Assembly: GCA_013815355.1 (NCBI GenBank)
Contig: JACDGG010000010.1
Span: 1-36,373 of the forward strand
Reading direction: 5' to 3'
DNA: 36,373 bases
Source of the DNA: Solirubrobacterales bacterium
GTDB taxonomy: Bacteria; Actinomycetota; Thermoleophilia; Solirubrobacterales; Solirubrobacteraceae
Position numbers and translations under genes: made by a program. Below are positions 4,110-26,117 of the stretch, piece by piece. Under the pieces are notes generated by a model. That model saw only the letters and a list, made by a program, of their open reading frames with translations, searched no databases and was not told the origin of the DNA. The first letter of the stretch is position 1. The number at the start of each line of letters is the position of its first letter.

Positions 4110-4119
4110 TCGGCTCGGC

Positions 4120-5148
4120 TCAGGTCTCGGCGTATGCGTCCTCGACGAAACGCGACAGCTCGTGCGCCGCCTCGCGCACGGTCGCGATCGCGCCGGCGTA
4201 GTCCATCCGCACCGGCCCGATCAGCGACACGGTACCGAGCTTGCGGCGCGCCATTCCGTAGCCGGTTGCGACCAGCGCCAGCGAGTGCATCGCGGGAAGC
4301 TCGTTCTCATGGCCGATCCGCACGTACACGCCCGGCTCGGCGAGCGCGGTGCGCAGCACGCTGAGCAGCGCAACGCGTCGCTCCAGCAGGCCGATCAGCT
4401 CGTTGACGTTGGTCGCGTCGGCGAGCTGCGCCGCCTCGAACAGACGAGCGGTGCCCTCGACATAGAGAGCATCCTCCCCCTCGGCCGCGAGGTCGCTGAA
4501 GGCGGGGGCGAAGCGCTCGAGGAACGCCAGCTCGCGCGCCGTCAGGCTGGGGTCGAGCAAGCGCTGTCCCAGCATCCGCGCTCCGAGCACGAGACCCACG
4601 AGGCGGTCGTTGAGATACTCCGCCGCCCATGAGACGAGCCCGGAGTCGACGGCCCGGTCAAAGCTCGCGAGCATCTTTGAGACGCTGCCCGTGGAGGTGA
4701 TCACGACCACCAGCACCAGCTGCGGCTGCAGCGCGAGCACCTCGACGTGGCGGATCGTCGCGCTGGTCATCGAGGGCGCGGAGACCACCGCGAGCAGATT
4801 GGTCATCTGCGAGAGCGTCTCTGTGGTGGCGCGCATCGCCTCGTCGAGCTCGCGGCGGATCAGAGAGAGCTCGAGCGGCTGGCGGGGCGCGGGAAGGGTC
4901 TGTTCTCTGCTGAGCATGCGGTCGACGACGTAGCGGTGTCCGGCGTCGGTCGGGACGCGCCCGGCCGACACGTGCGGGTGCGCGAGCAGGCCGTGCTCCT
5001 CGAGCAGCGCCAGTTCGTTGCGCACCGTGGAGGGGCCGCAGTCGAGCTCGGGGTCGGCGGCGATAACGCGCGAGGCAACCGGCTGAGCGGTCCTCAGGTA
5101 ATCGTCGACCACCATGCACAGAATCCGCTCCTGGCGGGAGGTCAGCAT
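4120..5148 (-). CDS. hrcA: Heat-inducible transcription repressor HrcA
   Basis: The product is 342 residues, the usual HrcA size. The N-terminal winged helix (LTSRQERILCMVVDDYL, then GPSTVRNELALLEEHGLL and HVSAGRVPTDAGHRYVVD) is the HrcA signature. The rest matches the GAF-like dimerisation domain, ending IGPVRMDYAGAIATVREAAHEL. Family knowledge: HrcA binds the CIRCE operator and represses chaperone operons. The start is decided by a TACAAT hexamer (5160-5155) six bases before the ATG, giving a leaderless transcript. I could not find a convincing CIRCE; only one half resembling GAGTGC lies in the -35 area. Confidence 0.95.
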   Translation of the reverse strand: MLTSRQERILCMVVDDYLRTAQPVASRVIAADPELDCGPSTVRNELALLEEHGLLAHPHVSAGRVPTDAGHRYVVDRMLSREQTLPAPRQPLELSLIRRELDEAMRATTETLSQMTNLLAVVSAPSMTSATIRHVEVLALQPQLVLVVVITSTGSVSKMLASFDRAVDSGLVSWAAEYLNDRLVGLVLGARMLGQRLLDPSLTARELAFLERFAPAFSDLAAEGEDALYVEGTARLFEAAQLADATNVNELIGLLERRVALLSVLRTALAEPGVYVRIGHENELPAMHSLALVATGYGMARRKLGTVSLIGPVRMDYAGAIATVREAAHELSRFVEDAYAET

Positions 5149-6322: not shown

Positions 6323-6733
6323 CTAGAAATCCAGGCCGTCGTCGGCCCCACCGGCGCCGACACCCGCCAGCTCTCCGCCCTCCTCGGCCCGACGCTCGCC
6401 TGGGGAGTCGAGGAACATCACGCTGTCGGCGACGATGCTCACAGCCTGGCGCTTCTTCTGCTCGGCCTCCCACTCGCGCCACTCCAGGCGCCCGTCGATG
6501 GCCACCCGGCTGCCCTTGCGCATGAACTCGGCGACGTTCTCGCCCGCCGCCCCGAAGGAGCTCACGTCGAAGTAGTTGGGCCGCTCGGAGTAAGTGCCGT
6601 CGGCGTCGCGCTGACGGGAATTACAGGCTATGCGCATCGCGCAGACGCTGGTCCCTGAGGGCAGGGCGCGCAGCTCGGGATCCTGCGTCAGGCGGCCGAC
6701 CAAGACCACCCTGTTGATCGAGTACTGGGACAT
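6323..6733 (-). CDS. ssb: Single-stranded DNA-binding protein
   Basis: The product is 136 residues with an OB fold: NRVVLVGRLTQDPELRALPSG, FDVSSFGAAGENVAEFMRKG and SRVAIDGRLEWREWE are the SSB core. The tail ends in ADDGLDF, an acidic tip that keeps the terminal Phe needed to contact partner proteins. The start ATG 6733 is chosen because conserved sequence begins there and GGAG precedes it by 6 bases. Reading direction and position put it at the end of the conjugation-like cluster, 50 bases after the replication-relaxation-like gene. Its short length and this context suggest an accessory rather than the housekeeping SSB, but this is inference. Confidence 0.88.
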   Translation of the reverse strand: MSQYSINRVVLVGRLTQDPELRALPSGTSVCAMRIACNSRQRDADGTYSERPNYFDVSSFGAAGENVAEFMRKGSRVAIDGRLEWREWEAEQKKRQAVSIVADSVMFLDSPGERRAEEGGELAGVGAGGADDGLDF

Positions 6734-6783
6734 GTGGGCTCCATTTTCACTAGATGGTTGACCCCCCTCCGGCAGGCTAGATC

Positions 6784-7509
6784 TCAATGGGGATGGTTCT
6801 CTATGCAGGCCAGCGAAGCAGCGTCGAATCCGAGGCCGCCGGGGGCGATCAGCGTTACGCGCTCAGTCGCCTGAGCGTCTGAGATCGCGCGCTCGAGCGC
6901 TCCTCGGACCTCGGCAGGAGCGATGTAGATGACGCCCGCGACACATGCACAGCGCGCCCATGCTCGGCAGATCGATGCGAGTCGCCGGGGCGCCTTGATC
7001 GTCAGCTCGACCTCGACCGCGACCGGCAGCCCGCGAGTCGCCGGCGGCCAGATGACGAGGTCGGGGCGGTGGAGCAATGCAGTCCCATCCGGGACGGCGC
7101 CGAGGCAAGCGCTGGCCAGGGCGGCGCCCCGCTCGTGCTCATCGCGGCGCAGCTCGCGCTCCCCCATCACCTGGTGATCGGGGTATGCGCGCTCGAGCGC
7201 GGCCGCAGCCCCCGCGCAGGCGATCGCATGTTGCGCGTTGGCCGCGCTGATGCGCGCCGGCTGCAACCCGCGCGCTCCCGCCAGGCGCATGCCCGAGTGG
7301 GTGGTTGAGAACAGCGCGGGCCTGCCGAGGAGGGGCTGTGCTCGCAGCAGCAGTCCCTCGCGCACTGCGACGAGCAGACGTGCACGCGCCGAGGCCACAC
7401 TCGCCTGCTCGCGATGCGCGAGCGCCTCCGCTGTGACGGCGCCCATCTGCGCCGTCCATCTGACGATCTCCAAGCGCGCGACCGGGTGGATTGTTCTTGG
7501 CGAGACCAT
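6784..7509 (-). CDS. Replication-relaxation-like protein (winged helix plus possible PD-(D/E)XK-like core)
   Basis: The product is 241 residues from ATG 7509 with Shine-Dalgarno AGGAG. The first ~75 residues look like a winged helix (LEIVRWTAQMGAVTAEALA, then SVASARARLLVAVREGLLL and a ST-THSGMRLAG wing). The second half contains RPDLVIWPP followed by PVAVEVELTIKAPRRL. This is a PD...ExE..K pattern as in restriction-like nuclease folds and in replication-relaxation proteins of plasmids and integrative elements. The domain order matches the C-terminal part of the 1263-residue protein at 11652-15443. Whether it cuts DNA is unknown. It lies between the coupling ATPase gene and ssb. Confidence 0.6.
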   Translation of the reverse strand: MVSPRTIHPVARLEIVRWTAQMGAVTAEALAHREQASVASARARLLVAVREGLLLRAQPLLGRPALFSTTHSGMRLAGARGLQPARISAANAQHAIACAGAAAALERAYPDHQVMGERELRRDEHERGAALASACLGAVPDGTALLHRPDLVIWPPATRGLPVAVEVELTIKAPRRLASICRAWARCACVAGVIYIAPAEVRGALERAISDAQATERVTLIAPGGLGFDAASLACIENHPH

Positions 7510-7600: not shown

Positions 7601-9226
7601 TCAGCTCAGCGCCGGCGCGGCCTGGATCTGCGTGATGCGTGCCTGCCCTGCGGCGCCGAGCACGAGCACCGCGCCCCAGCCGGTGCCCAGGCCCATGATC
7701 CGATCCGGCTCGAGCACACTGCGCTTGCTACGGGTGCGCGTGCTCCTGCCGTCGCTGTGCTGGGAGACCTTCCATGTGCCTTCGCTTCCGGCCACGGCAG
7801 CGATCAGCTCGGCCGAGGCCGGGACGACCTGGCGGTGGGCGATCAGCAGTGAGAGATTGCCCATCACCTGCTCGAGCAGACGCTCGCGTCCCGGCAGACG
7901 CAGATCTGAGATCTCCTGGGTTCCCAGCATCAGGCTGAAGCCGGCCGATCGCGCTCTCCCGAACAGCCGCACGACCTGCTCCGCCGCGACGGCGGAGAAC
8001 TCATCGATGATCACCGCCGTCGGCACCGGGCGGCCCTGGAGCGCCGCGACCGTCGTCTGCAGATCCTGCACGATCGCCGCACCGATCATCTGAGCCAGCA
8101 ACGGCCGGGTGTCGGATTCCAAGCGGAAGTACACGACCGCCCGTTCAGCGACCGCCGCCGGCAGCGCCAGCTGAGAAGCCCCCGCGGTGCTCGGCTCAAG
8201 CCACGGCCCGACGTCTGACTCCACGAGGATCGCGAGCCGGTCACGAACCCCGGCCAGGTCTCGCTGCTGGCGGCTCGTGAGCGAATCGAGGTAGGCGAAC
8301 GTCGCGGCGGCCGCGGGCTCGGGCAGACGGCGGGCGAGCAGCTCCAGCCGGGAGGGGTCGAGCTGAGCCACGATCTCGCCCAGGCTGATCTCCTCGCCGC
8401 TGCGACGCAGCGTCCGAACGACATGGCCTAGGTAACGCTGTGCCTGGCGCAGGTAGTGCGGCTCGGTGAACAGCTCGCCGGCCAGCACCTTGTCGGCGAT
8501 CTCGGTGTCGCTGCCGATCGCATACGGGTTATAGACACATCCCCCGCGCGGGGTCCATTCCGTGAATTGGCGCTCGGAGATGCGAGCAGCGTGCTGCAGT
8601 TGCTCGCGCATCGCCTCATCGCCCTTGGGGTCCACGACGATCACTCCCATCCCACGGGCTATCGCGGCGAGCGCCATCGCTGTCTGTGTGACCGTCTTGC
8701 CTGAACCGGTGGCGCCGACGATCAGGGTGTGCATCGCTCCGGCGGGTCCCGCGAACGGCACGCGCACGTCGCGGTGCTGCTCGTCGTGGCCGATCAGCAT
8801 CCCCGGCTCGGCCGCTCGGGAGCCAGGGACGCCCAGCTCGCCTGCGAGGAGCTTCAGCCGCGGGCGGGCGATCGAGGCCAGATATGTCGACGGCCGGCTC
8901 CCGCGAGCTGCGATCTCTGCGAGATCGCCACCGGCCTGGAGGTCTTCTCGGTGCCAGCGCCGTGCCCGCACCGTTGCGGCGAGAGCGGTGGCAGCGAGCG
9001 CGAGCTGCAAGGAGCCGAGAAGGGGGCCAATCAGCAGGATCACCGGCAGCGAAACTGCACTCCAGCTCCAGTGCAGATGACGGGTGCGTATCAGGCGAGC
9101 GCCCAGCAGTCCGATCATCACTGCGAGCGCGAGCTCGAAGATCGATCCGGTCAGGACGTGCAGGAGCTGCTCCGGGTAGGCCAGCAGGTCTTCCCGAGGT
9201 TCGGTGGTTGCATCGGATGAGGGCAT
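7601..9226 (-). CDS. TraD/TraG-type type IV coupling protein (conjugative DNA-transfer ATPase)
   Basis: The product is 541 residues. Start ATG 9226 has Shine-Dalgarno AAAGGAG. Two hydrophobic segments (about 21-46 and 54-86) form the N-terminal membrane anchor typical of coupling proteins. Walker A is GATGSGKT (171-178), VVDPKGD is at 197-203, Walker B is AVIIDEF (404-410) and the sensor region is MLGTQEISDLRLPG (433-446). Family knowledge: these hexameric FtsK-like motors deliver relaxase-bound DNA to a type IV secretion channel. No relaxase or channel gene lies in the same cluster. Sizes and motifs are normal, so the ATPase should be active. Confidence 0.85.
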   Translation of the reverse strand: MPSSDATTEPREDLLAYPEQLLHVLTGSIFELALAVMIGLLGARLIRTRHLHWSWSAVSLPVILLIGPLLGSLQLALAATALAATVRARRWHREDLQAGGDLAEIAARGSRPSTYLASIARPRLKLLAGELGVPGSRAAEPGMLIGHDEQHRDVRVPFAGPAGAMHTLIVGATGSGKTVTQTAMALAAIARGMGVIVVDPKGDEAMREQLQHAARISERQFTEWTPRGGCVYNPYAIGSDTEIADKVLAGELFTEPHYLRQAQRYLGHVVRTLRRSGEEISLGEIVAQLDPSRLELLARRLPEPAAAATFAYLDSLTSRQQRDLAGVRDRLAILVESDVGPWLEPSTAGASQLALPAAVAERAVVYFRLESDTRPLLAQMIGAAIVQDLQTTVAALQGRPVPTAVIIDEFSAVAAEQVVRLFGRARSAGFSLMLGTQEISDLRLPGRERLLEQVMGNLSLLIAHRQVVPASAELIAAVAGSEGTWKVSQHSDGRSTRTRSKRSVLEPDRIMGLGTGWGAVLVLGAAGQARITQIQAAPALS

Positions 9227-9245
9227 TGCGCCACTCCTTTCATGA

Positions 9246-9360
9246 GCCTGCGCGGGCAGGCGGATTTGAGCCGGCGCTCGCCGGCCATTGACACGCAGGC
9301 CGCGCCGGCCGAAGGGCCGGTATCGGTGCCTGCGCGTTGGGCATGGCAGGCCCGAAGGCC
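9246..9360. repeat. Cluster of four short GC hairpins before the coupling-ATPase gene
   Basis: Four strong hairpins lie in the 190-base gap between the response regulator stop (9417) and the ATPase start (9226): GCCTGC/GCAGGC (9246-9261), GCCGGC/GCCGGC (9272-9287), CCGGCC/GGCCGG with a GAAG loop (9305-9320) and GGCC/GGCC with a CGAA loop (9349-9360). Read leftward, two loops become TTC-containing tetraloops. They may tune readthrough or stability of the operon mRNA. Confidence 0.6.
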
Positions 9361-9416
9361 CGTCCAAGTTCTTCGCGGGGCGAGAGCGCGCCACCGCTAC
9401 CGAGCAGCGGCGCGCG

Positions 9417-10127
9417 TCAGATCAGCCGATAGCCGACTCCCCAGACGTTGATGACCCAGCGCCGGGTCTGATCGACCTCGAGCTTGCGCCGCAGGCGACT
9501 CGCATGACTGTCCACGGTGCGTGTGGAGCCTCCGGAGCGATAGCCCCAGACGCCGCGCAGCAGCTGATCGCGCGTGAACACGCGCGAGGGCTCCCGGGCA
9601 AGATGGATGAGCAGGTCGAACTCCATGCGGCGCAGCATGAGCTCGCGACCGTGGAGGGTCGCGAGGTGAGCGTGACTGTCGATCACGAGGCTCTCGACTG
9701 CGAGCCAGCGCGTGGCGTCTCCCGAGTTTCTGACACGGCGCAGGAGCGCCCTCACGCGCGCACGCAGCTCGAGGTAGCCGCAGGCCCGTGTGAGGAAGTC
9801 ATCGGCGCCCGCTTCAAAGGCGCGGAGCATCTCCAGCTCATGCCCCTTGGCGCCGAGGACGATCGTCGGCATCGCGCGGTCCCACGGGGCGCAACCGGGC
9901 GGCGCTCGACGAATCTCCTCCAACAGCGTGAGCGCTCCGCGCGGGGCGTCTAGGTCGCCCAGAAGCGCGACCTCCGGCGCCCGGGCCCGAGCGAGGATGC
10001 GAGCGTGCTCGCTCGTGCGCGCGACCTCCACGCCGAAGCCGTCGGCGACGAGCTGATCGGCCAGTGCGCAAGCGCGCTCCCGGTCGGCCTCGACGATCAG
10101 GACCGGCCCCTCGGGGCGAGCGCTCAC
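9417..10127 (-). CDS. OmpR/PhoB-family response regulator (orphan, atypical receiver)
   Basis: The product is 236 residues. The receiver domain (about 10-120) reads VLIVEADRERA with LLGDLDAPRG, where the Asp before LDAP is the likely phosphoacceptor. The switch Lys of the usual TKPF motif is replaced by Arg (FLTRACGYLELRARVRALLRR). The C-terminal winged helix is complete: RRMEFDLLIHLAREPSRVF, RDQLLRGVWGYRS, then TVDSHASRLRRKL and VWGVGYRLI. The GTG start overlaps the stop of the upstream gene by four bases (GTGA). No histidine kinase is nearby. It probably controls the conjugation-like cluster in which it sits; the target sites are unknown. Confidence 0.85.
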   Translation of the reverse strand: MSARPEGPVLIVEADRERACALADQLVADGFGVEVARTSEHARILARARAPEVALLGDLDAPRGALTLLEEIRRAPPGCAPWDRAMPTIVLGAKGHELEMLRAFEAGADDFLTRACGYLELRARVRALLRRVRNSGDATRWLAVESLVIDSHAHLATLHGRELMLRRMEFDLLIHLAREPSRVFTRDQLLRGVWGYRSGGSTRTVDSHASRLRRKLEVDQTRRWVINVWGVGYRLI

Positions 10128-11080
10128 GCCACTTCCACCTCCCGGGGAGTCAAGCCGAGACCGCGACGGGCGATCAGGGCCAGCACGTCGCTGTGCACCC
10201 AGGGAGTCGGCGCGCCTCGTCCCCCCTCGGCGAGCAGCCCGACGCGGCGGGCGAGCCAGCTCGTCTCGCCACTCTCGTTGCCCTTGCGGTCGCGCTTCAC
10301 ACGCCCGCAGAGCCGTGCGATCTCGCTCATGCTTCGCCTTTCATTTGCGACGTGCGCGAGCACCGCCTCGCGGAGCCTACGGTTGAGCACGATCGGGCTC
10401 TCGCGGACACGCACGAGCTCCGCCTCGAGGACGCTCGTCGAGATCTCACCGTCGCCCTTGTGCAGCGCGAGCATCCCTTCTGTCAACGAGCAGGCCGGCT
10501 CGTAGTGCTCGAGATTCCCAACGACCTCGCGGAGACTGAGGGTTCGCATCGCAGGGGCGCCGTCTGCTGTCTCACAGCCCCACCGCAGCTCGGGGATCGC
10601 GACGCGTCCCGCGACCAGGCGCAGCGCGTAGGCGTGCCCCTCGCGATCGCGAGGCATGCTCGCAGAGGCGAGCGCCGTGATCTGCGCGGCGTCGCACCCG
10701 AGCGGGGCGAGCGGATCGATGCGCGCGTCCTGCTCGGTGAGAGCCCGGCAGCGAGCCGGATCGGGGGGATCGCTCTGAAGGTAGTCGCGGCAGATCAGCG
10801 CGGCGTTCTCTGGGGGCTCATCCGCGGCGAGGTGCGCCAGGAGCCTGCGGTCTGCGCTCGTGGCAAGGTCGCGGTCGATGACGAGCACCGAGCCCAGCGA
10901 TCCGGTGCGCGCGACGATCTCGCGATCGTGTCCGGAGCTGTCGGTGTAGAGCGCGAGCGCTTGCGGAGCTCCTCCGGCCGGGTCCGAGACGCGCCGGCAT
11001 CCACCGGATCGGCGGTGGCGGGCAGGCTCGCGCTCGGTGTTGCGGTGTCGGGCGATCGTGTCGGATGAGCTGGCGGGCAT
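10124..11080 (-). CDS. Unknown protein with C-terminal helix-turn-helix-like region
   Basis: I do not recognise a named family for these 318 residues. The start ATG 11080 is firm: AGGAGG precedes it by 4 bases. The first ~35 residues are basic and disordered-looking. The middle includes LVIDRDLATSADRRLLAHLAAD (about 85-106). The C-terminal third (SMSEIARLCGR, then SGETSWLARRVGLL and PTPWVHSDVLALIARRGLGL) resembles a DNA-binding helix-turn-helix followed by a conserved tail. The four-base overlap with the response regulator gene means the two are made together. A DNA-binding partner of the cluster is a guess from this context. Confidence 0.6.
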   Translation of the reverse strand: MPASSSDTIARHRNTEREPARHRRSGGCRRVSDPAGGAPQALALYTDSSGHDREIVARTGSLGSVLVIDRDLATSADRRLLAHLAADEPPENAALICRDYLQSDPPDPARCRALTEQDARIDPLAPLGCDAAQITALASASMPRDREGHAYALRLVAGRVAIPELRWGCETADGAPAMRTLSLREVVGNLEHYEPACSLTEGMLALHKGDGEISTSVLEAELVRVRESPIVLNRRLREAVLAHVANERRSMSEIARLCGRVKRDRKGNESGETSWLARRVGLLAEGGRGAPTPWVHSDVLALIARRGLGLTPREVEVA

Positions 11081-11651
11081 GTTTCCTCCTGGGGTGCGTT
11101 TGGCGGCGGTGGGGGCGGGCGTCGATGGGAGCGCACGCGCAGCTCGTCAAGCCGCTGGCGTGGATGCTCCGGGGCTTCTCGAGGGACTCCGAGAGCTCCC
11201 AAAGGGCGTCTCGGACCTCGGTGTGCACGCGGGCGAGCGGGGGATGAAGCTGGCGCGCAAGCGCTCGCGACCATCACATCCACGACCCGAAGCTCTCGGC
11301 GTCGCGCGGTGGCTGCTCGTTGCTCACTCAGACGAGCGAGGTATGTGTGGGCGAGGCGGAGAGATCTGGGGTAAGGAGGTGGGGCGGCGCACACTAGCCC
11401 GAGTCTGCGATTGGATCGCGGGCGCATCGCGCTGCGCGCTTCTGCGCCCGCAGTCGCCTCCCGTCGCGTGCTGCAATTCCGCTCTGCAATGCTGGATCTC
11501 GTGATGAGGTGATGCATTTGCGTGGCTCCTGGCACGGGGGGCGACGGCGTCACGCTGCGTGCCGGAACAGTGGTGACTGCACGGCGTGACCGGGCGACTG
11601 CGCGATGCGGCGGGCGAACGCATGAACGGCTGCGTGCCAAAGCGGCGGGGG
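11081..11651. other. 571-base gap within the conjugation-like cluster
   Basis: No clear gene is present. On minus, a frame from about 11330 to 11100 has coding-like third positions and reads LARVHTEVRDALWELSES around 11228-11180. It is broken by a TGA near 11270 and runs into the next gene in another frame. It may be a decayed small gene. CTGCAAT occurs twice, at 11471-11477 and 11484-11490 (13 bp apart), as a possible operator half-site pair. The gap is the likely promoter region of the two regulator genes downstream. Confidence 0.4.
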
Positions 11652-14600
11652 TCACGGCAGCGCCTCGGAAGCGAGCAGAACGACGCTGCGCTGCTCGATC
11701 TGCGTCTCGGCCGCCCGGCGATCGCCGCGCGCCGCGGCAACCCGGAGGTGCGGGGGAAGCCGCGGGACTCCGTAGGCGCACAGCAGCCGCTCGTGGATGT
11801 CGCGCTCGGACACGAACAGCGTCTGCTCGCGCCCCTGGTACTCCCAGTCCTGGGGGTACTCCCCGGCATACGCGCGAGAGGCGCGCAGGACCGTGTCGGC
11901 CTGTCGTGCGCAAGCTCGCGAGCGAGCCCGGTCGCGGCAGATGAACACGACCAGAGGCGTGGCCAGCATGCGCTCGCCGTAGCGACGGGTGTGCGCTGCC
12001 CAACCTGTGAGGAAATGGTCGTAGCGCTCGAGCTTGGCGACGCCGCGCGCGTCGAGCAGGCGATCGTCGCGCTCGAGGATCAGATCGATCGCGTGAGCTT
12101 CCTTCGTGAGAGGCGCCTCGATCTCGACGATGGCGCCTGGGCGCAGCGAATCGAAGCGCTCCGCGGCAGCGGCGTTGCCGGCTGCATCGGTGCGCAGGAA
12201 GTCGTGGGCCGAGCGCCCGCCCGGGAGCCGCAGCTCTCCCGGTGAGAGCCTCGCGCGGCCGTGCGTCCGGGCAGGTTCGGGCACGAGCAGGCTCGCCTGC
12301 TCTGGACCGCGCACGACCGGCCCGGAAGAGGCGCCGACCACGTCGATCAGCGCGAGCACCCAGCCGGCGAGGTGAATGTCGCGGCGAGCCTCATGAAGTC
12401 GCGCCTCGCCGCCGCTAGGCGGCGCATCGACTGGCCGGGCATCGGCCGCCAGGGCGCTCTGGCCCTGAGCCTGGGCGCCCGCGAGCGCCCGCAGTCCCCC
12501 GGCGCTGAGCCGGTAGGCCATCGGCACGCCACCGCCGTCGCGACGATGAAACTGAAAGCGCTCGACGAGCCCCGCGTCCGAGAGCCGCTTCAACCGGCGC
12601 TGGGTCGTGCTGGGCGCGCGGCCCGGATTGTGATGGCGGTGGATCTGGCTGCTGAGAAGGTGGCGCAGCGAAGCGATCGAGGTGAGGATTTCGAGGTCCA
12701 GGGCATCCGGCTGATGGGCGCGAGCCGGCCGGGCGGGCCTCGCGACTCGAGCGCTGTGGGCTCTATCCAGATCGACGAGCTCGCGATAGCTCGGCGCGGC
12801 GATATCCGGCAGGCTCGTATCCGGCCCGACCGCCGAAACGAGCGGCGAGCGCTCTTGAGCGGGGCGCTCAGGCGGTGCCGGCGCGGTCCGGAGAATCCTC
12901 TGCGGATGATCCCAGTGGGGCTGTCGCAGGTCGCTGAGATGCCGTGCCCCGCGTTCCTGCTGGCGCGCGGCGTGAGCTGCGAGACGCTCGTGGTCGACGG
13001 CCATCGGCAGCGTGCGCGCGATGAACGAGCTCTGGCGCCCGCCGGCCGTAAGCCAGCTTGCGACCGCGTGATGCTTGGGGAGATGCAGGCGCACATCGGG
13101 GTATCCGAGCGCGGAGAGACGGCCGATCCCCGGTCTGACGGTATCTGAGAACTCAGCCATCGTGAGCGACACTGCCGAGCGAGCGTCCTTGACCGAGGAG
13201 GTGGCGAAGTACACGCGATGAGCAAAGAGGGCATCGAGCTGCTCGCGCACATCGCGGTCGATCCACTGAGAATCCGTCTGCCAGCACGCGACCGTCTCAA
13301 GGCCGGCGGAGCGCTTCAGCGCCATCGTCTCGGCGAAGCCGCGATTGATCACGAGCGGCGCCTCATCGATCTTGAGCGCCACCGCGATGCGCCGCTCACC
13401 TGCCACGAGGTCCTGCTGGCGGGCGAGGGCCGCGTCGAGCATCCCGACCAGCAGTTGCATCAGCACCGAGGTGTTGCCCGCGCCCATCGAGCCGAGCGCT
13501 CCCTTGACGACGAGCACCTCGGCGCCGGCGATCACGCGATCGAAGTCGACGCGCAGCGCGTCGTTGAGCAGGACGCGCTTGATCGACGGCGAGTTCAGCA
13601 GCCGCGCCAGCTTGTTGACGGGCGCGTCGAGCTTCGCGGTCGTCGTGGCGCGCGAGTCGGCGAGCTGCGCGGAGAGCTCGGCCGTGAAGAACGAGCTGAT
13701 CTCCTTCAGCTCAGGAAGCGTCCTGACGTGCGCTCCCACGCTCGCGCGGTAGGAGTACCCCTCCTCTCCTACCGAGAGCAGGCGCGCGGCATCCCACAGC
13801 GTCGAGCGTCGATCGTGCGCGAGCACGGCGATGATCGAGTTGCGCAGGTAGCGGTCTGAGGAGGCGCGGATGTCCGCGTCGGTAAACAGGTTCTTCAGCG
13901 CGGCCACGACGTAGTCGGCGATCACGTCCGCCGGCGCATCGACGGCGAGCGGGTTGAAGCCGCAGGTGGGATGGGCGAAGTCGAGAAGCGTGCAGGTGCG
14001 GTCGAGCGGCACGGCGCTCAGCGTGGCGTCGGCCGCGTCGCCCTTGGGGTCGAGCACGATCACGGCGCAGCGCTCGCGACGCACGTCCTCTGCGACGGTC
14101 GCGACCAGGTAGCTGGACTTGCCCTGCTCGACCGTGCCCGGGACCGCGGTGTTCTGCTTGCGCAGCTCCTCAGCGATTGTGACCGGGCCGACCGAGTCGC
14201 AGAGCGTGCCAGCGCCGGCAGGCCGCGAGATCCCCGCTGGCGCCGGCGCCAGCGGCAACCCCGAACGTGCGACGGGCACGTTGAGATAGTCGAGCGAGGG
14301 GAGCTGCCAGAGCGATGCCAGCTCACTCGTCGCGAACACGCCCTTACGGAAGGACGGCAATGGGTTGCCCTCTCCTCTCTGCACGCGGCGCGTGTAGAGC
14401 CCGAGCAGGCCGTGGCGTATGGCCGTCCCGCGCTCCACGAGCCTGTTCTCGGCGAGCTCGATACGCAGCTCTGAGGCGATCCGCTCGCAGGCGACGCGCT
14501 CGGCGGCGACGATCCTCAGCTCTGCGAAGAACAGGCTGTGGTGCTGAACATCCAGTCCTCCTCGAAGCTCCGCGTCGTCGAGCATCGAGCGGTCGTGCAT

Positions 14601-15443
14601 GACCGCTCCCTCGCGGCGCTCACGAGACAGTCGCGCCTCGCGACTCTTGAACGCGTGCCTTGCGAGCTTCTCAAACGCCGCCGGCGTGGGCGTGAGGGCG
14701 ATCTGCACGAAGGCAGGCGCTCCCCCGACGCCCATCACCGTGAGCAGACGGTTGACCGAGGGCTCGCGTTCGTGCTCGAAGCGATCCAGCGCACGCGCGC
14801 GCATGACGAACTCGCGGTGCTTCTTCAGACGCAGGACTGCCGGCGGATCACCCACACGCCACTCGCATGGGGCCAGACGGCAGCTGGGATATGCATTGCG
14901 CAGAGCTGCCTCCACAATCGACTCGAGGCCATGCGGGCAGCTCACCGCGAGCCAGCCCGCGGGAGCCCGCGGGTCGCCGCCGTAATGCACCTCGAGCGCC
15001 AGCGAGGGCTGCCCTTGCAGCAGGCGTCGCCACCATCGGTGCTGCAGCCGCCGGTGCAGTGCCTCGAACATCCGGGGCAGCGCATCAGCCTCGGCGTGAT
15101 CGCCCCGGTAAGGCTCGACGACGAGTCGCACGTAGCGGCGGCGGCGGCGCGCTCGCCCGCGAGCGAGCGCGATCAGGAGTGCGGCGAGGAGCGTCAGCGC
15201 CGCCAGCATCTGCAGCGGCGCGAGCGCGCCAAACAGCTTCCAGCCCCAGATCGCTCGCGCCTCGCGCCCGACCGCGCCTGCGACGGTTCTTCCGTGGGCT
15301 CGGGCTGCGTGCTCTCGGCTCTGACCACGCAGGATGCGCCCGGGGCCGCCGTCGAGAAACCACGCGAGCGAAGCGGCCCCGCCGATCGCCGCGAGCAGTC
15401 CAAGCATCCGCCACAGAAGGAAGCGCAGCACGTGCTGGCTCAT
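11652..15443 (-). CDS. TraG-like ATPase fused to a replication-relaxation domain
   Basis: The product is 1263 residues. Two N-terminal hydrophobic segments (about 5-30 and 70-95) anchor it in the membrane. A region of ~300 residues follows without a motif I recognise. The ATPase has Walker A GTVEQGKS (436-443), VIVLDPKGD (462-470) and Walker B ALKIDEA (689-695), as in TraG/VirD4 and HerA-type motors. From about 914, LEILTSIASLRHLLSSQIHR and TTQRRLKRLSDAGLVERF form a winged helix. A C-terminal core (IDLILERDD, AKLERYDHF, TPLVVFICRD) matches the replication-relaxation family. The same domain types appear as separate genes at 6784 and 7601. No Shine-Dalgarno is obvious before ATG 15443. Fusion of motor and DNA-binding domain suggests a DNA-translocating machine. 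Confidence 0.75.
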   Translation of the reverse strand: MSQHVLRFLLWRMLGLLAAIGGAASLAWFLDGGPGRILRGQSREHAARAHGRTVAGAVGREARAIWGWKLFGALAPLQMLAALTLLAALLIALARGRARRRRRYVRLVVEPYRGDHAEADALPRMFEALHRRLQHRWWRRLLQGQPSLALEVHYGGDPRAPAGWLAVSCPHGLESIVEAALRNAYPSCRLAPCEWRVGDPPAVLRLKKHREFVMRARALDRFEHEREPSVNRLLTVMGVGGAPAFVQIALTPTPAAFEKLARHAFKSREARLSRERREGAVMHDRSMLDDAELRGGLDVQHHSLFFAELRIVAAERVACERIASELRIELAENRLVERGTAIRHGLLGLYTRRVQRGEGNPLPSFRKGVFATSELASLWQLPSLDYLNVPVARSGLPLAPAPAGISRPAGAGTLCDSVGPVTIAEELRKQNTAVPGTVEQGKSSYLVATVAEDVRRERCAVIVLDPKGDAADATLSAVPLDRTCTLLDFAHPTCGFNPLAVDAPADVIADYVVAALKNLFTDADIRASSDRYLRNSIIAVLAHDRRSTLWDAARLLSVGEEGYSYRASVGAHVRTLPELKEISSFFTAELSAQLADSRATTTAKLDAPVNKLARLLNSPSIKRVLLNDALRVDFDRVIAGAEVLVVKGALGSMGAGNTSVLMQLLVGMLDAALARQQDLVAGERRIAVALKIDEAPLVINRGFAETMALKRSAGLETVACWQTDSQWIDRDVREQLDALFAHRVYFATSSVKDARSAVSLTMAEFSDTVRPGIGRLSALGYPDVRLHLPKHHAVASWLTAGGRQSSFIARTLPMAVDHERLAAHAARQQERGARHLSDLRQPHWDHPQRILRTAPAPPERPAQERSPLVSAVGPDTSLPDIAAPSYRELVDLDRAHSARVARPARPARAHQPDALDLEILTSIASLRHLLSSQIHRHHNPGRAPSTTQRRLKRLSDAGLVERFQFHRRDGGGVPMAYRLSAGGLRALAGAQAQGQSALAADARPVDAPPSGGEARLHEARRDIHLAGWVLALIDVVGASSGPVVRGPEQASLLVPEPARTHGRARLSPGELRLPGGRSAHDFLRTDAAGNAAAAERFDSLRPGAIVEIEAPLTKEAHAIDLILERDDRLLDARGVAKLERYDHFLTGWAAHTRRYGERMLATPLVVFICRDRARSRACARQADTVLRASRAYAGEYPQDWEYQGREQTLFVSERDIHERLLCAYGVPRLPPHLRVAAARGDRRAAETQIEQRSVVLLASEALP

Positions 15444-15552: not shown

Positions 15553-16539
15553 TCAGCGCGGCCGTGTGGCGCGCTCGACCTGCGCGCCTCGCGCCGTCAG
15601 ATGCCAGGCGTTCGCAGCACCCTTCTCCTGGCCCTCGCCTCGGTTCTCGACGAGGTTCAGCCGGCCCAGGCGGTTGAGGAGCTTTGAGATCTGTCCCTGG
15701 TCGATGATGCCCGAGCCTTCCGCGATCTCGCGGTTGCTCGCGCCGGGATGCTCGGCGATGACCATCAGCACCCGCACCGTGCGGTAGGTGAGGCGCATGT
15801 TGAGACCTTCGAGTGGGTCCCTGCTGCGCGTCTGTGAGCGAGTCTGCCGGTCGCGCGCGACCTCCATCGCGGGCCTGGCGAGTTCGCGGCTCGCCGCGCG
15901 CGCGCCGAGGTAGGGCAGCACGATCATGCTCATCAGCGGTCCGAGCAGGTCCGTCAACGGCTCGTCTGCCTCATCCAGCAGGCGCGTGTGCAGCACCGCA
16001 AAGATGCCGCCGACGATCCCTTCGGCGGTGACCGCGGGCGGTTCGCGTGTGGTGTTCGTGAGGTGGCGACCCTGATCGATCACGGCTGCGATCTCATCGA
16101 GCAGCTGCGCACGCCGTTCGAGCACCTTCTCACCGGCCGCGAGCGCCTCCACGACGCACAGCTTGGCCAGACCCGGCTCTTCGTCCATGAACATCAGGAG
16201 CCGGCCGAGCGCGGCGCGAACTCCCTCGCGCCAGACGTCTCCCTCGCGTTCGTATGCCTCCCGCGCGATCAGCCGCGTCTGGGAGACAGCCTGTTCAAAG
16301 GCAGCCAGGAAGCAGTCCTCGCGATCGGCGAACACGTCATAGAAGGTCTTGCGCGAGACGCGGGCGCGGCTGATGACCTGGGCGACGGTCATGCGCGCGT
16401 AGCCGACCTCCTCGACCGCGTCCACCGCCGCAGCGAGCATTCGACTGCGTTGAATCTCGGTGACCTGGCCGCGCGGCAGGCCGTTGGGGCCCGGGCGTAG
16501 CCTTGGTGTCGCGGCACGTGTCTTGTACATAAATGCCAT
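15553..16539 (-). CDS. TetR-family regulator fused to a MarR-type winged helix
   Basis: The product is 328 residues. Residues about 28-80 are a TetR helix-turn-helix: SRMLAAAVDAVEEVGYARMT, then ISRARVSRKTFYDVFADRE. A TetR ligand-binding core continues to about 215. After a linker rich in Arg/Ser/Thr, a second DNA-binding domain begins at about 238: MRLTYRTVRVLMVIAEHPG, ASNREIAEGSG, GQISKLLNRLGRLNLVEN. This is the MarR layout. TetR proteins alone are about 200 residues, so this is a true fusion. It is the first gene of the leftward cluster and the likely repressor of it. The ATG overlaps the stop of a possible 63-codon ORF (TAATG). Confidence 0.85.
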   Translation of the reverse strand: MAFMYKTRAATPRLRPGPNGLPRGQVTEIQRSRMLAAAVDAVEEVGYARMTVAQVISRARVSRKTFYDVFADREDCFLAAFEQAVSQTRLIAREAYEREGDVWREGVRAALGRLLMFMDEEPGLAKLCVVEALAAGEKVLERRAQLLDEIAAVIDQGRHLTNTTREPPAVTAEGIVGGIFAVLHTRLLDEADEPLTDLLGPLMSMIVLPYLGARAASRELARPAMEVARDRQTRSQTRSRDPLEGLNMRLTYRTVRVLMVIAEHPGASNREIAEGSGIIDQGQISKLLNRLGRLNLVENRGEGQEKGAANAWHLTARGAQVERATRPR

Positions 16540-18620: not shown

Positions 18621-18656
18621 GCCCTGTTGCCAGCCGACGTACGGCGGGGTCTTGAC

Positions 18657-19997
18657 ATGAGCGTCAGGCAGGATCGGGGCGCCTGGGAGGTGCGGTGGCG
18701 CGACGGATCGGGCCGCAGACGAGCCAAGCGCTTCGACGACGAGCAGGCGGCGCGCGCATTCGACGAAGCCCTCGGTGAGGTCGCCCCAATCGAGCGGCGC
18801 TCGGACACGGCCACCTACGGTGCCAAGGGCGGCGTCTACTCGTACGACACCGCGCAGGGAACGCGCTGGCGCTACGTATTCCGGCGAACCGACGGGACGC
18901 AAACGAGCAAGCGCGGATTCAGTAGCCAAGCGGCTGCGCGGACCGCTTTGCGTCGCCTCACTGAGCAGATGGACCGGGGCGAGGTGCGCCACACGACGCA
19001 GACATTCGGCAGCTGGTGGGAGACCTGGCTTCAGCGGCGCAAGCCATATCTCGAGCCGAACGCCTGGAGGGCTTACGACGTCGACGGGCGTAAGCGGCTG
19101 CTCCCGGCTTTCAGAGACGTGCGACTCGACAAGCTCGAGATCGAGAACGTCCGCGCATGGATGCAGGAGCAGGGCGAACGGGTCGAAGCCCAAGAGGTCG
19201 CGGCCAAGACGATCAACAACACGCTGGGGACGTTGGTCGTCTGTCTCAACGCGGCGGTCAAGGACCGAGTGACAGCGAGCAACCCCGCCATCGGGATCGA
19301 GCGCCTGCCTCCGGCGCACATAGAGCACGATTATCTGCGCCTCCAGGAGATCCCCGCCTACCTCGACGCCTGCTTGTCCGTGTACCGACCGCTCGCCGAG
19401 GTTCTGGTGCGGGCGGGCCTGCGTATCTCCGAGGCAATCGCCCTCCAGATCGCCGACGTCGAGCTTGAGGCCACCGGCGGCTTCATCGTCGTGTACCGAT
19501 CGCACAAGAAGGCGCGGACCCGAAAGACAACCAACGGGTCGACGAAGGGCGACCGATTCCGCAGCGTTGAGATCGGCCCTGGGCTCAGCCGCACGCTTCA
19601 GGAGCAACTCGCGCGCAGGGCGGAGATGGCCAGCGGCGACCAGAAGAGCTCGCCGGTCTTCGTGATGCCGCTGCGAACGCGCAAAGCCGACCGCGGACGC
19701 TGGTCGAGCGCTGGCGACCCAGAGCCGTTTGACCGCAACACCGTCTCGCAGGACTGGCACAAGGTTGGCCTGCAGGACGCGGCGCTGCGAGACATGCCGC
19801 TGCACGCATTGCGCCATACCGCCGCAGCAGCGTGGCTTGCGGGCGGTAACTCGTTGATGTATGTGCAGCGTCAACTCGGTCATGCGGACATCGGGACGAC
19901 CGAGCGCTATTACGGGCATCTGGAGCGTCACGTGCTCGCGGCGGGTGCGATCGCGACTGAAGAAGTGATCGCTCGCGCTGTGGCGGCGAACAGGTAG
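18657..19997 (+). CDS. int: Tyrosine recombinase/integrase
   Basis: The product is 446 residues. Start ATG 18657 is chosen because conserved sequence (RGAWEVRWRDGSGRRRAKRF) begins there; the upstream frame runs through the tRNA genes. N-terminal arm-binding, AP2-like segments (1-45 and 58-100) precede a SAM-like core-binding domain (about 115-215). The catalytic residues are all present: Arg256 in AGLRISEA, His383 and Arg386 in HALRHT, His409 in LGHADIG and Tyr418 in TTERYYGH. It should cut and join the tRNA-Leu att core. It lies 158 bases from the att copy, reading into the element, and is convergent with the excisionase-like gene 6 bases away. Confidence 0.95.
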   Translation: MSVRQDRGAWEVRWRDGSGRRRAKRFDDEQAARAFDEALGEVAPIERRSDTATYGAKGGVYSYDTAQGTRWRYVFRRTDGTQTSKRGFSSQAAARTALRRLTEQMDRGEVRHTTQTFGSWWETWLQRRKPYLEPNAWRAYDVDGRKRLLPAFRDVRLDKLEIENVRAWMQEQGERVEAQEVAAKTINNTLGTLVVCLNAAVKDRVTASNPAIGIERLPPAHIEHDYLRLQEIPAYLDACLSVYRPLAEVLVRAGLRISEAIALQIADVELEATGGFIVVYRSHKKARTRKTTNGSTKGDRFRSVEIGPGLSRTLQEQLARRAEMASGDQKSSPVFVMPLRTRKADRGRWSSAGDPEPFDRNTVSQDWHKVGLQDAALRDMPLHALRHTAAAAWLAGGNSLMYVQRQLGHADIGTTERYYGHLERHVLAAGAIATEEVIARAVAANR

Positions 19998-20809: not shown

Positions 20810-20867
20810 GATCAGTGAGTTCTCGCGCGACCTGGTCGGGGATGACGATGTGGATGCGTCGGCTCAT
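20664..20867 (-). CDS. Ribbon-helix-helix-like accessory protein
   Basis: The product is 67 residues. MSRRIHIVIPDQVARELTDLADAAG followed by SPSTLAATLVRNEIANQ is the beta-strand plus two-helix layout of RHH repressors and mobilization accessory proteins. The ATG overlaps the relaxase stop by four bases (ATGA, 20867-20864). The C-terminal 25 residues are basic and overlap the next gene. A likely role is binding near oriT and helping or limiting the relaxase; this is inferred from position. Confidence 0.6.
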   Translation of the reverse strand: MSRRIHIVIPDQVARELTDLADAAGESPSTLAATLVRNEIANQGSQTQIRKPACGSRRTRLRAPRLA

Positions 20868-23515
20868 CGCTCGAGATCCGGGGCGCGGTCAGGAGTGCGC
20901 GCCGGCCGGATGCTCCGCACAAGCCCGGGCAGCGGGTTGCGGCTAGGGGCGAGCGTCCGGTCAAGCTCGGGCGCCAGGTCCGGGTGACGTGTCTCCGCGT
21001 GTTGGAGGGTGGGTGTGTGCGCGCGGCTGGTTCGCATCTTGTTGGCTAGTTGCTCGATGCGGTGCTCGTCTTGGCCGTCGGTGCCGAGCTCGTCGCGTGC
21101 GAGGAACCACTCGGTGCCTTGCCGGGCGCGGCTGGCTTGGACGTAGGAGCTCTCCTTGCTGGTGTGCCAGCCACCGGTCACGACGACCGACCGGTCGACG
21201 GTCGCGCCCTGCTGGCGGTAGACGAGTTGGGCATAGGCCAGGCGCAAGTCCTGGAGGTCCTCACCGGCGATGGTGATGTCGCGGTCTGAGCCGTCGAGTG
21301 TCACGGCCAGGGCCTCTCCATGTTCGCTGACGTGGGTGACTTCGCCGCGTGCGCCGTTCTCAACGCGCGGCTGGCCGGACGGGTGGTGTTGTGCGGTGAA
21401 GGTGATGAGGTCGCCTTCATGCAGGCCATAGTGCTGGTGCGGCAGCGGAACCTCGGCGTCGCCGAGTTCGCCGCGTTCTGCGCGGAGGTGCTGGGCGCGG
21501 GCGTTGAGCCGGTCGATCTCGACGTTCGAGGCGTCAGCGATCAGGGCAACGTCACGCATCTCGCGTGTCTCGGTCAGCTGCGCCCAGCGCTTGACCGCGG
21601 CCTCGCCGGCCTGGTCGCGGGTGTCCGTGAAATAGAGCTGGCCTTGGGCGCGGTAATGAGCCATCGCACGCTCGGGCTCCCCCGCCCGCAGCGCCGCCCA
21701 CGCCTTTCGCTCCTCGGGGTCGCTCGTTCGATGGATGTCCGTGAGCTCGGCCGTGTGCGCGTGCCGTGCGATCCGGTCGAACATTCCGCCGGGTCCGATC
21801 GAGGGGAGCTGCTTTCCGTCACCGACCACGACGAGCTTGGCGCCTGTGCGCTCGATCACCTCGGTGAGGGCGTCCATTCGTTTGTGGTCGACCATCCCGG
21901 CCTCATCGAGGATCACTCTCGTCGCCGCGTTGACCGCGAGGCGCCCGCTGTTTGCTCGCGCCACGAACGCGTCCAGCGTCAAGGTGCTTCCGGCGAGCGC
22001 CGGGCTGTCCGCGCCGAGACGCTCAGCGGTCGAACCGGACACGGCGATCCCGATCACGTCGTGTCCGACCAGCTGCTCGGCCCTGGCCCCAGCGTCGATC
22101 ACGACTCCCTTCCCGGTACCCGCCGGCCCGACGAGGACTCCCAGGCGCTCGGGTCCGCCGATCGCCCGGAGTGCCTGCTGCTGCTCGCGCGAGAGTGGAG
22201 CCGCTATGCGCTCTGCGACCTCACGGCTCGCGTGCTCTCTTGCCTGCGCGCCGACATCAATGTTCGCGGGCCGCGCGAGCTCATCGGCGCGACGCTCGAT
22301 CGCTTCCTCCTGCGCCCGGACAGCAAGCGTCGTCATCCGCCCGCCCTCCAACGTCAGGACCCGTCGTTCACTGACCATCGCGCGGGCGGTCTCGAGCGCC
22401 GCCCCGGGAGCGAGCTCCCCTGCTGTCTGCTCCAACGCGACCGCGCGCAACAATCCGGCCTCGAAGACCGCCTCGCGCTCCACGAGGCGCGCCTCGATCC
22501 GATCCTCCACCGGCCGATCATCGCGAACAGGTGCAGGAGCGCCGACTAGATGCACCGCCTCATCCGCCCCGAACGCGTGGCGTTGCCCTGTCTGCTGCCA
22601 GACGCCCAGTAGGTCTGCGCGGGTCGATAGCTCCTTCGCGCGGCGGTTCTCGAGCGCGAGCGCGCGCAGCTCCCCGCGTTCCGCCGCGCGACCATGCTTT
22701 GAGCGGAACCGCTCCGCGGCCTTCGCGATCTCACGGTGGCGTCCTGAGAGCGCGTCCAGCAGGCCGCGCGGTACCCCGGCGATCTCGAAGTACTTGCCTC
22801 CGTTTCCGGTGCCCTGCTCGATCGGGTAGCCCTCCCCCGCGAGCTCTTGAGCGAGCGCTGAGCGGTAGAACGCGCCGACCTCCCGCGCGCCACGGAACAC
22901 CGGCCGTGAGGCGACCGCGACGAACCGGCCATCCTCACAAACGGCGCCCGTCAACACGACGTGCGTGTGCAGTTGCGGGTCAGGGGCCTCGGCGCCGGAG
23001 ACGCCTCTCGCGGTTGTGTGGCCGTAGGCGGTCGCAATCACGTCCTTCGCGTGCTCGTCGACCACCTGGCCGTGATAGCGACGACGTACCACGGGGACCC
23101 GCTCCTTCAGGTAGTCGACGGCTCGCTCGACGGCGCGCGCGTGCGCGGCTTCGATCTGCTCGCGCTGCCACGGGTCCCCCAGCGCCCACACGACCGACAC
23201 CGACTTCGGCGCGCTGAACGTCACATCGATCCCACCACCACGCGTCCCATCAGCACCCGCCGGACGCAGCCACGCACCCGTCCCGGGATGCCGGCCCTCC
23301 ATCAGCGCGATGAAATCCTCACCCGCCACCGGCGCGTCCGGGTCGATGCCGAGACGCGCCAGCGTGTCCGCCCCTGAGAGCCACCGGCCGGGTGCCTCGG
23401 TCAGGTCCCCGTCGGGGGTCAGGTAGTAGTCGCCGCGCTCCGAGGCGATCGTCTTACCCTCCAGATACCGGGCGTAGCCACCACCCGCCCCTGAACCGAT
23501 ACTCGACGCGGTCAT
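20864..23515 (-). CDS. MobF-family conjugative relaxase-helicase (TrwC/TraA-like)
   Basis: The product is 883 residues; ATG 23515 is preferred over GTG 23518 because AAGGGG is 4 bases before it. The relaxase domain (1-300) has N-terminal tyrosines (GGGYARYLEGK; GDYYLTPDG) and the metal-binding histidines in AYGHTTARG (His166) and QLHTHVVLTG (His183, His185). The helicase has Walker A GPAGTGKG (463-470), Walker B RVILDEAG (533-540), GDGKQLPSIGPGG and a C-terminal UvrD-like motif (LVYRQQGATVDRSVVV, YVQASRARQG). The last Walker A residue is Gly instead of Ser/Thr. It should nick oriT and unwind the strand for transfer. No coupling protein is encoded in the same element. Confidence 0.92.
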   Translation of the reverse strand: MTASSIGSGAGGGYARYLEGKTIASERGDYYLTPDGDLTEAPGRWLSGADTLARLGIDPDAPVAGEDFIALMEGRHPGTGAWLRPAGADGTRGGGIDVTFSAPKSVSVVWALGDPWQREQIEAAHARAVERAVDYLKERVPVVRRRYHGQVVDEHAKDVIATAYGHTTARGVSGAEAPDPQLHTHVVLTGAVCEDGRFVAVASRPVFRGAREVGAFYRSALAQELAGEGYPIEQGTGNGGKYFEIAGVPRGLLDALSGRHREIAKAAERFRSKHGRAAERGELRALALENRRAKELSTRADLLGVWQQTGQRHAFGADEAVHLVGAPAPVRDDRPVEDRIEARLVEREAVFEAGLLRAVALEQTAGELAPGAALETARAMVSERRVLTLEGGRMTTLAVRAQEEAIERRADELARPANIDVGAQAREHASREVAERIAAPLSREQQQALRAIGGPERLGVLVGPAGTGKGVVIDAGARAEQLVGHDVIGIAVSGSTAERLGADSPALAGSTLTLDAFVARANSGRLAVNAATRVILDEAGMVDHKRMDALTEVIERTGAKLVVVGDGKQLPSIGPGGMFDRIARHAHTAELTDIHRTSDPEERKAWAALRAGEPERAMAHYRAQGQLYFTDTRDQAGEAAVKRWAQLTETREMRDVALIADASNVEIDRLNARAQHLRAERGELGDAEVPLPHQHYGLHEGDLITFTAQHHPSGQPRVENGARGEVTHVSEHGEALAVTLDGSDRDITIAGEDLQDLRLAYAQLVYRQQGATVDRSVVVTGGWHTSKESSYVQASRARQGTEWFLARDELGTDGQDEHRIEQLANKMRTSRAHTPTLQHAETRHPDLAPELDRTLAPSRNPLPGLVRSIRPARTPDRAPDLER

Positions 23516-23787
23516 CACACCCCTTCAGAGCGCGAACCGCGAAAGACGGCCAAGCAATCAGGCAGCACCCGCACGGGCGTGCATCTGGTGTGGTTGGGCA
23601 GTAGCGGAGCGAAGCGACGCGCAGCCGTTGTTGTGGCGCGGTTGGACGCGAACGCCGCGAACGGTAGGCGTTGGGATCGGCGAGACGAGTCCGGCGCGGG
23701 ACGTCTGGCAGGTCGACTGGGCGGACCGGCGATAACTCAGGTGGCAGCTGCGGTCGGTGAAAAGGGCGTCGAGTCTGACGGACCTCA
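23516..23787. other. Intergenic region upstream of the relaxase, possible oriT
   Basis: These 272 bases hold no convincing gene. A GCAC-GGGC-GTGC hairpin lies at 23571-23582. Relaxase origins usually lie just upstream of such genes, so an oriT here is plausible, but I see no known nic sequence. A short frame resembling a TetR helix (ITQVAAAVG, near 23730) may be a remnant. Confidence 0.3.
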
Positions 23788-26043: not shown

Positions 26044-26049
26044 GGGATT

Positions 26050-26105: not shown

Positions 26106-26117
26106 AGCTTTGGTGGC

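Follow-up and report, generated by a model that had tools for sequence, protein, structure and literature searches.

What purpose could a bacterial chromosome have for a protein that joins a DNA-pumping motor to a relaxase-like domain, kept in one place through long evolutionary time? The question is raised by P1, a protein of 1263 residues encoded on the minus strand, at 11652..15443, of a 36,373-nucleotide stretch of DNA (the window) from a Solirubrobacterales bacterium (GenBank assembly GCA_013815355.1, contig JACDGG010000010.1, positions 1 to 36,373). With a probability of about 0.6, P1 is a type IV coupling protein (T4CP) of the VirD4/TrwB kind carrying a C-terminal domain derived from a MOBC relaxase, and belongs to a fixed, vertically inherited conjugation-like system. 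Labels beginning with G, C and L below are our handles for genomes, contigs and loci. The features on which the argument turns are these:

11652..15443, minus strand: P1, fused T4CP-type motor and Replic_Relax/MOBC-like domain, 1263 residues
12864..15443, minus strand: P1 residues 1-860, with two membrane helices, an N-terminal alpha/beta region and a T4CP/VirB4-type ATPase
11694..12731, minus strand: P1 residues 905-1250, winged helix and nuclease-like core, with the catalytic Asp replaced by Gly at residue 1103
7601..9394, minus strand: P2, separate T4CP-type ATPase, by Pfam and profile matches
6784..7509, minus strand: P3, separate short MOBC-like protein, 241 residues, with invariant PD...EVEL..K

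The fused protein and its motor

The P1 frame begins with ATG, and the plus-strand reading of the same stretch contains stops. The initial annotation had described a motor fused to a replication-relaxation domain in a single 1263-residue protein, and the fusion is real: it recurs at full length and in one frame in many independent genomes, which rules out an assembly error at the junction. Searching the two halves separately with hidden Markov models, as that annotation advised, succeeded for the C-terminus, which was assigned to Replic_Relax, and returned no Pfam match at E 0.1 for residues 1-860. A sequence search of the PDB with P1 found nothing at E 1 and a search of viral contigs no relative, while in plasmid records the matches are confined to the part with the ATPase, at 22-28% identity.

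Two N-terminal hydrophobic helices, placed at residues 5-23 and 70-98 by hydropathy and at 2-30 and 74-101 in an AlphaFold2 (AF2) model, bear out the membrane segments proposed earlier, and the proposed Walker A/B ATPase is equally secure, since G441 and K442 of the Walker A motif GTVEQGKSS and D693 of Walker B are invariant in 15 aligned full-length relatives. The AF2 model of residues 1-860, based on a 33-sequence alignment, reached a pLDDT of 85.2 and a pTM of 0.80; the motor alignment, A2, comprises 33 of 37 pieces, two L099 pieces, L082 and L043:4094-6802 being omitted. The best structural re-alignment of the motor is with TrwB (Z 27.9, 379 residues, 3.6 Å), and because VirB4 comes next at Z 26.1, the motor fold alone cannot separate a T4CP from a VirB4. 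Foldseek puts chains of the R388 type IV secretion system (T4SS), VirB4/TrwK among them, at the top of its whole-chain matches (best E 2e-13), so that residues 104-400 of the modelled structure may be VirB4-like. Profile comparison is more discriminating: hhalign aligns the P1 motor with the P2 family at a probability of 98.1 over 351 columns, and with a VirB4 set of the same order at 78.7 over 118 columns. As the ATPase profile is nearer to P2 than to VirB4, we therefore call the P1 motor T4CP-type (of the VirD4/TrwB kind) with an unusual N-terminal region. Some of the 33 aligned P1 relatives match T4CP models in Pfam directly (PF10412 in 8, PF12696 in 6), and the window copy matches SXT_TraD at 1.3e-7, below the cut-off.

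Divided active sites in P1 and P3

In the C-terminal part of P1, Replic_Relax (PF13814) scores 43.7 bits (cut-off 25.3) over residues 920-1150 of the window copy, and is found at E 0.1 in the C-termini of 33 of 34 relatives, all 34 pieces being included in the C-terminal alignment, A3. PF13814 corresponds to the MobC class of CONJscan, and the streptococcal elements of that class carry a VirD4 T4CP, according to PMC5357655. The AF2 model of residues 905-1250 (pLDDT 92.0, pTM 0.90) consists of a winged helix and a strand-helix core, and both parts of the earlier assignment, winged helix and nuclease-like core, stand, with the reservation that matches in a PDB fold search cover the winged helix only (MarR-type chains, Z up to 12.9) and none extends to the nuclease core. 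The predicted core (strands 200-206 and 213-221, helix 228-242, strand 257-265) would fit the PD-(D/E)XK arrangement. Among viral models, gp146 of Bacillus phage G (E 2.7e-9) and a protein of phage JL (2.3e-8) match most of the C-terminal model, which suggests that Replic_Relax-like proteins occur in phages.

The catalytic residues tell the two MOBC-like proteins apart. P1 relatives share the motif PD ... VExD ... K, which in the window copy reads PG ... LERD ... K, with Gly at residue 1103 where the catalytic Asp is expected. A check for restriction-fold catalytic residues, recommended at the outset, finds this Asp missing from the window P1 and a complete PD...EVEL..K motif in P3. PD is retained, for example, in the P1 domain of L074. 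Across cluster copies of P1 the Asp is kept in 12 of 22 and lost in 10, and all four residues (D, E, D/E, K) are kept in 10 of 22; the corresponding figures for non-cluster rows are 11 and 10 of 13, one of the 13 (L049) having no aligned domain, and seven of the 42 aligned proteins, without the domain, are uncounted. Because the lost Asp has been replaced by many different residues (G, Q, C, T, A, A, H, H, N, S), the catalytic site of P1 seems to be under relaxed selection. In P3, P149, D150, E166, E168 and K172 are invariant in 14 of 14 orthologues, and even where the P1 domain has lost the Asp, the first Glu and the Lys (L041, L096), the P3 motif is intact. Relaxed in P1 and invariant in P3, the active sites point to a clear, testable division of labour.

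The kinship of the two domains emerges at the level of profiles: the 14-member P3 profile aligns with the P1 C-terminus in hhalign at a probability of 94 (E 1e-7). Individual P3 proteins are recognised weakly, the window copy through NF041423 (1.3e-4, below cut-off) and 3 of 14 members, the window copy not among them, through PF13814 at E 0.1 or better (best 9.8e-7); some members have Pfam matches of the winged helix-turn-helix (wHTH) type.

The separate genes at 7601 and 6784, to which the initial annotation had pointed as unfused counterparts in the same cluster, are indeed a second T4CP (P2) and a short MOBC-like protein (P3). P2 is a TraG/VirD4-type ATPase (PF12696 7e-9, PF10412 1e-7; SXT_TraD 4e-29, below cut-off) whose true start is probably near 9226, relatives aligning only from about residue 51-57. 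Judged from its distribution, P2-P3 is a pair with a history of its own. An element-like locus (L129) combines P2 and P3 with an integrase-like frame, a single-strand DNA-binding protein (SSB) and a large ATPase frame, and in another genus of the family relA-, recJ- and secDF-like genes are the fixed neighbours of a P3-P2 pair that lacks P1, in all four loci checked (L132, L133, L134, L144), possibly through an independent domestication of a T4CP together with a MOBC protein.

A fixed chromosomal cluster

P1, P2 and P3 lie in a cluster of the order P6-P1-P5-P4-P2-P3-SSB, adjoining maoC-hrcA-dnaJ-prmA in many genomes of an uncultured genus of Solirubrobacteraceae. Its remaining parts in the window are:

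6323..6787, minus strand: SSB (PF00436 1.1e-29), position in the cluster conserved
9417..10127, minus strand: P4, OmpR/PhoB-type response regulator, present in only part of the genomes
10124..11080, minus strand: P5, cluster-specific protein without a Pfam family, C-terminus helix-turn-helix-like
11188..11215, strand not assigned: imperfect copy of a palindrome whose consensus is TCCGAGACCCCTTAAGGGGTCTCGGA; it lies upstream of P5 and is a candidate operator or element resembling an origin of transfer (oriT)
15553..16539, minus strand: P6, TetR-type and MarR-type regulator, directly upstream of P1
2110..6028, minus strand: chromosomal anchor of prmA, dnaJ, hrcA and two MaoC-like genes, by synteny in relatives

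The anchor genes were named from reading their protein sequences, without a Pfam scan. P4, P5 and P6 are probably regulators. In 10 of the 18 genomes having a cluster P5 (shared-word test), the palindrome TCCGAGACCCCTTAAGGGGTCTCGGA is located upstream of this gene at a distance of about 105-140 bp, namely in the window, where the copy is imperfect, and in L074, L085, L078, L079, L076, L087, L088, L092 and L136; exact 12-base cores were absent from the channel loci and the other loci searched. It is a candidate operator, hairpin or oriT-like element.

P1 relatives from a contig scan come mostly from metagenome-assembled genomes (MAGs) of Solirubrobacteraceae and Solirubrobacterales, with one Conexibacter and one Solirubrobacter isolate among them. 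A P1 match is present in 22 of the 24 genomes of the genus, and 19 have a strong orthologue (by our count). Cluster-type loci number 23, that is, the window and 22 of the 27 loci from the scan; P5 lies within the fetched stretch in 16 of them and the MaoC gene by hrcA-dnaJ-prmA is reached in 13 (counted likewise); in the seven loci that lack P5 in this stretch, the contig ends or P1 lies apart. The same anchor is shared by genomes whose HrcA proteins are only 58-87% identical, and identities among P1 proteins rise and fall with those of the adjacent HrcA (r 0.82 over 66 pairs; over 8 genomes, r 0.78 with a Mantel p of 0.018). Trees of P1 and of HrcA, DnaJ and MaoC combined both pair the window with L074 on starred branches, most other branches being unresolved. 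By these measures the P1 cluster is a vertically inherited chromosomal locus rather than an integrative element.

Outside the cluster, P1 relatives keep different company. Within the same taxonomic order, the fused form stands beside T4SS genes in L044 (TcpE and VirB4), L048 (VirB4 and TrbL) and L050 (VirB4 and a cell-wall hydrolase); motor and Replic_Relax are two adjacent genes in L045 and L046, and the N-terminal region is encoded separately in L051 and L052. A cultured relative, Conexibacter sp. CPCC 205762 (L094), also has the fused gene and VirB4 at one locus. Of the 13 non-cluster P1 loci, 9 have VirB4 in the DNA fetched around them, whereas none of the cluster loci does; the VirB4 profile derives from five of these nine, which are independently recognised by Pfam.

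A second locus encoding a Tcp-type channel

A further question is whether the genus possesses a channel. Pfam models PF19044 (5 of 24 genomes) and PF04610 (7 of 24), neither with a match in the window's own genome, had indicated that VirB4 and VirB6 are absent from most of the genus. A profile built from local VirB4 proteins overturned this conclusion, and the loci themselves confirmed that a channel is encoded. The profile matches in 23 of 24 genus genomes; a chromosomal-type copy is present in 19 (by our count), and its orthology was checked by synteny in 12 of these.

The 12 fetched loci have a common order, Lon - BrkB - 211-residue protein - TcpC - pilin-like - TcpE - VirB4 - VirB6-like - SLT transglycosylase - FAD reductase. 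VirB4, TcpE and the pilin-like gene are present in all 12. Eleven loci have TcpC, the VirB6-like gene, BrkB and the gene for the 211-residue protein, whereas Lon and FAD reductase each occur in 9 and SLT in 8, absences that stem in part from contig ends. Pfam names TcpC (PF12642), TcpE (PF12648, below cut-off), VirB4 (AAA_10, PF12846), BrkB and SLT, while Lon and FAD reductase were labelled by reading the protein sequences, and the pilin-like and VirB6-like proteins were named by topology and position only. The small pilin-like protein has a leader-like helix and two helices that flank a basic loop. In the window's genome the locus lies on contig C146 (L145), which ends just past VirB4. The second locus is fixed as well: VirB4 identities correlate over 8 genomes with those of HrcA (r 0.82, Mantel p 0.005), and over 12 genomes with those of P1 (r 0.59, p 0.042).

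With a P1 cluster fixed in one place and a channel locus fixed in another, the genus seems to possess a conjugation system that is both split and domesticated. In the order as a whole, 10 of 151 genomes carry VirB4 at an identity of 59% or higher and nine of these have a strong P1, an overlap confounded by kinship. The most telling genome for the link between the loci is G146, in which P1, P2 and P3 are gone from the cluster, SSB, P4, P5 and P6 are kept, and TcpC is reduced to a remnant of about its first 43 residues (L150 7500-8750).

Proposed function and alternative explanations

A mechanism consistent with these observations can be outlined. P1 would combine a motor with a DNA-binding pseudo-relaxase, its wHTH and dead nuclease core holding DNA at the membrane-bound motor; P3, with an intact active site, would make the cut; SSB would coat the freed strand; and hexamers of P1, P2 or both would pump the strand through the TcpC/TcpE/VirB4/VirB6/pilin channel, by which DNA would leave or enter the cell. 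A hetero-complex of motor and DNA-binding partner, suggested in the initial annotation, is plausible and fits the adjacency of the genes, their joint loss in G146 and the divided active sites. The likely purpose of such a system would be the exchange of chromosomal DNA between cells. The full proposal, tentative and at somewhat less than even odds, is that of a two-locus, vertically inherited machine exchanging chromosomal DNA, a bacterial counterpart of archaeal Ced/Ted that has kept its coupling proteins and a MOBC nuclease, with one relaxase domain, fused to the motor in P1, turned into a non-catalytic DNA-loading module while the small paralogue P3 took over cutting.

Several points weigh against P1 as a coupling protein in a fixed conjugation-like system. 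Residues 1-860 of the window copy have no T4CP match in Pfam at E 0.1, and a repeat search of the gap between P1 and P5 gave no clear oriT. The link between the loci rests on co-conservation within one genus, where P1 and VirB4 are found together in 16 of 24 genomes, P1 only in 3, VirB4 only in 3 and neither in 2, counts that by themselves give no significant association and that incompleteness blurs. Furthermore, G146 is a single case of TcpC truncation with loss of P1-P3, in a genome of another genus (G048) the P1 cluster is present and this VirB4 absent at 1e-20, and most of the genomes compared are MAGs.

The alternative that survives best, although doubtful, is a motor-nuclease pair akin to HerA-NurA or HerA-DUF4297, serving defence or DNA repair through the destruction of incoming DNA or the resection of ends, and not transfer. 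It is kept open because P2 matches the PADLOC model mad8 of MADS at 9.5e-19 (HerA models matching weakly) and because P3-P2 pairs occur without P1, fixed in another genus in the four loci noted above; HerA is also structurally close to the motor (Z 22.7), and an SSB belongs to the cluster. Against it stand the membrane helices of P1 and P2, the presence of P1 relatives in T4SS loci (9 of 13) and the conservation of a T4SS channel in the genus. Nor do P1, P3, P5 and SSB find a convincing defence model: the mad models, scanned with these cluster proteins and P2, match none of the four, and P1 reaches only wHTH models of the Csa3 type at 0.012 and 0.022.

That the cluster is instead the decaying remnant of an old integrative conjugative element (ICE), once self-transferring and slowly eroding after the loss of its integrase and oriT, we consider unlikely. 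Erosion would explain the loss of at least one active-site residue in 12 of 22 cluster P1 copies and the disappearance of P1, P2 and P3 from G146, and relatives of P1 and of P2-P3 do occur in loci with an integrase and VirB4, L129 with its integrase-like and large ATPase frames being an example. Against this, P1 frames of 1230-1490 residues are open in many genomes, changes in the motor are about four times as frequent at third codon positions as at second ones (0.50 versus 0.12, one genome pair), the P3 site is invariant, and the channel gene order is kept in the 12 fetched loci. The weakest alternative, a mobilisable element that borrows the channel, with P1-P3 mobilising themselves and merely looking fixed, finds some support in the separation of P1 from P5-P2-P3-SSB in some genomes (in G081 by about 25 kb of the same contig) and in the T4CPs that streptococcal MOBC elements have of their own (PMC5357655), but is highly improbable in view of the same chromosomal anchor at HrcA identities of 58-87% and of a conserved cluster without an integrase.

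Neighbouring elements in the window and in related loci

Between 18193 and 23518 the window holds a tRNA-Glu, a tRNA-Leu, a tyrosine integrase (18648-19997, plus strand) and a MobF relaxase-helicase (20864-23518, minus strand). That integrase, MobF relaxase and P1 cluster form one ICE was considered and is ruled out by synteny, neither the integrase nor MobF being found at the other cluster loci compared; the stretch, which adjoins the cluster, is an integrated or mobilisable element in its own right. Further along, at 25340-26121, a HEPN gene (PF05168) beside an apparent nucleotidyltransferase gene likely makes up a HEPN/MNT pair.

Related loci offer two further observations. P1 is broken by unrelated DNA at the same codon (about residue 521) in L086 (about 2077) and L087 (about 4332), the borders of the inserts having a few bases in common, and L092 carries at 4090-4419 an additional P1 fragment of residues 586-684, 88% identical; P1 may thus be an integration site of some element. 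Elsewhere in G127 extra copies of P5 have a divergent SSB nearby, and G143 likewise has a P5 with a divergent SSB (L137, L138, L139, L140 and L142 for the two genomes together), so that P5-SSB looks like a recurring module.

Comparison with known systems

No report of a T4SS or of a fused T4CP-MOBC protein in Solirubrobacterales was found in the literature searched, preprints and most subscription papers lying outside its scope. The parts are of known kinds; what appears new is the fusion, the split fixed loci and the pairing of a decayed with an intact MOBC site. The channel locus has TcpC, TcpE and a VirB4-type ATPase in common with Tcp-type systems of the Tn916/pCW3 type. Those systems are mobile and use TcpA and other relaxases, in place of which VirD4-type T4CPs and MOBC are found here.

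For the P1 cluster, the closest parallels concern coupling proteins and MOBC relaxases. In CloDF13 the T4CP MobB and the MOBC relaxase MobC act together, as the T4CP and MOBC parts of P1 might, and PMC7431656 ascribes to MobB a dual role in relaxation and transfer, an example of cooperation between T4CP and MOBC proteins. CloDF13 encodes them as separate plasmid genes, whereas here they are fused and chromosomal, a second, unfused pair is present and the motif of the fused domain often indicates inactivity. A natural T4CP-MOBC fusion means that relaxase and pump can be one molecule. TraX of pAD1, the MOBC prototype, has an N-terminal winged helix and a PD-(D/E)XK-type core like the C-terminus of P1; PMC12857230 describes no motor domain for it and an active site functional by mutagenesis, in contrast to the window P1 without its Asp. 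The same review reports that a covalent intermediate was not detected; since MOBC relaxases, as far as reported there, are not covalently joined to DNA, it is an open question by what route DNA is delivered to the pump.

As regards domestication, Patescibacteria have a widespread monoderm-type T4SS that is likewise chromosomal, most of them lacking a relaxase according to PMC12102498, whereas here a fixed MOBC/T4CP locus goes with the channel. The archaeal Ced/Ted systems are chromosomal, domesticated conjugation machinery with homologues of VirB4, VirB6 and pilin, as in the channel locus described here, and have no recognisable relaxase (PMC9905601), while in the present genus T4CPs and MOBC-type proteins are kept. 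Fixed chromosomal channel genes, the mark of a system of the Ced/Ted type, are found here for VirB4 and the pilin-like protein in 12 of 12 loci and for VirB6-like in 11. If the split system does transfer chromosomal DNA, soil Actinomycetota would gain an unrecognised route of gene exchange, and P1 and its partners would represent a rare bacterial case of domesticated conjugation, one in which, unlike Ced/Ted, the DNA-processing proteins have been kept.

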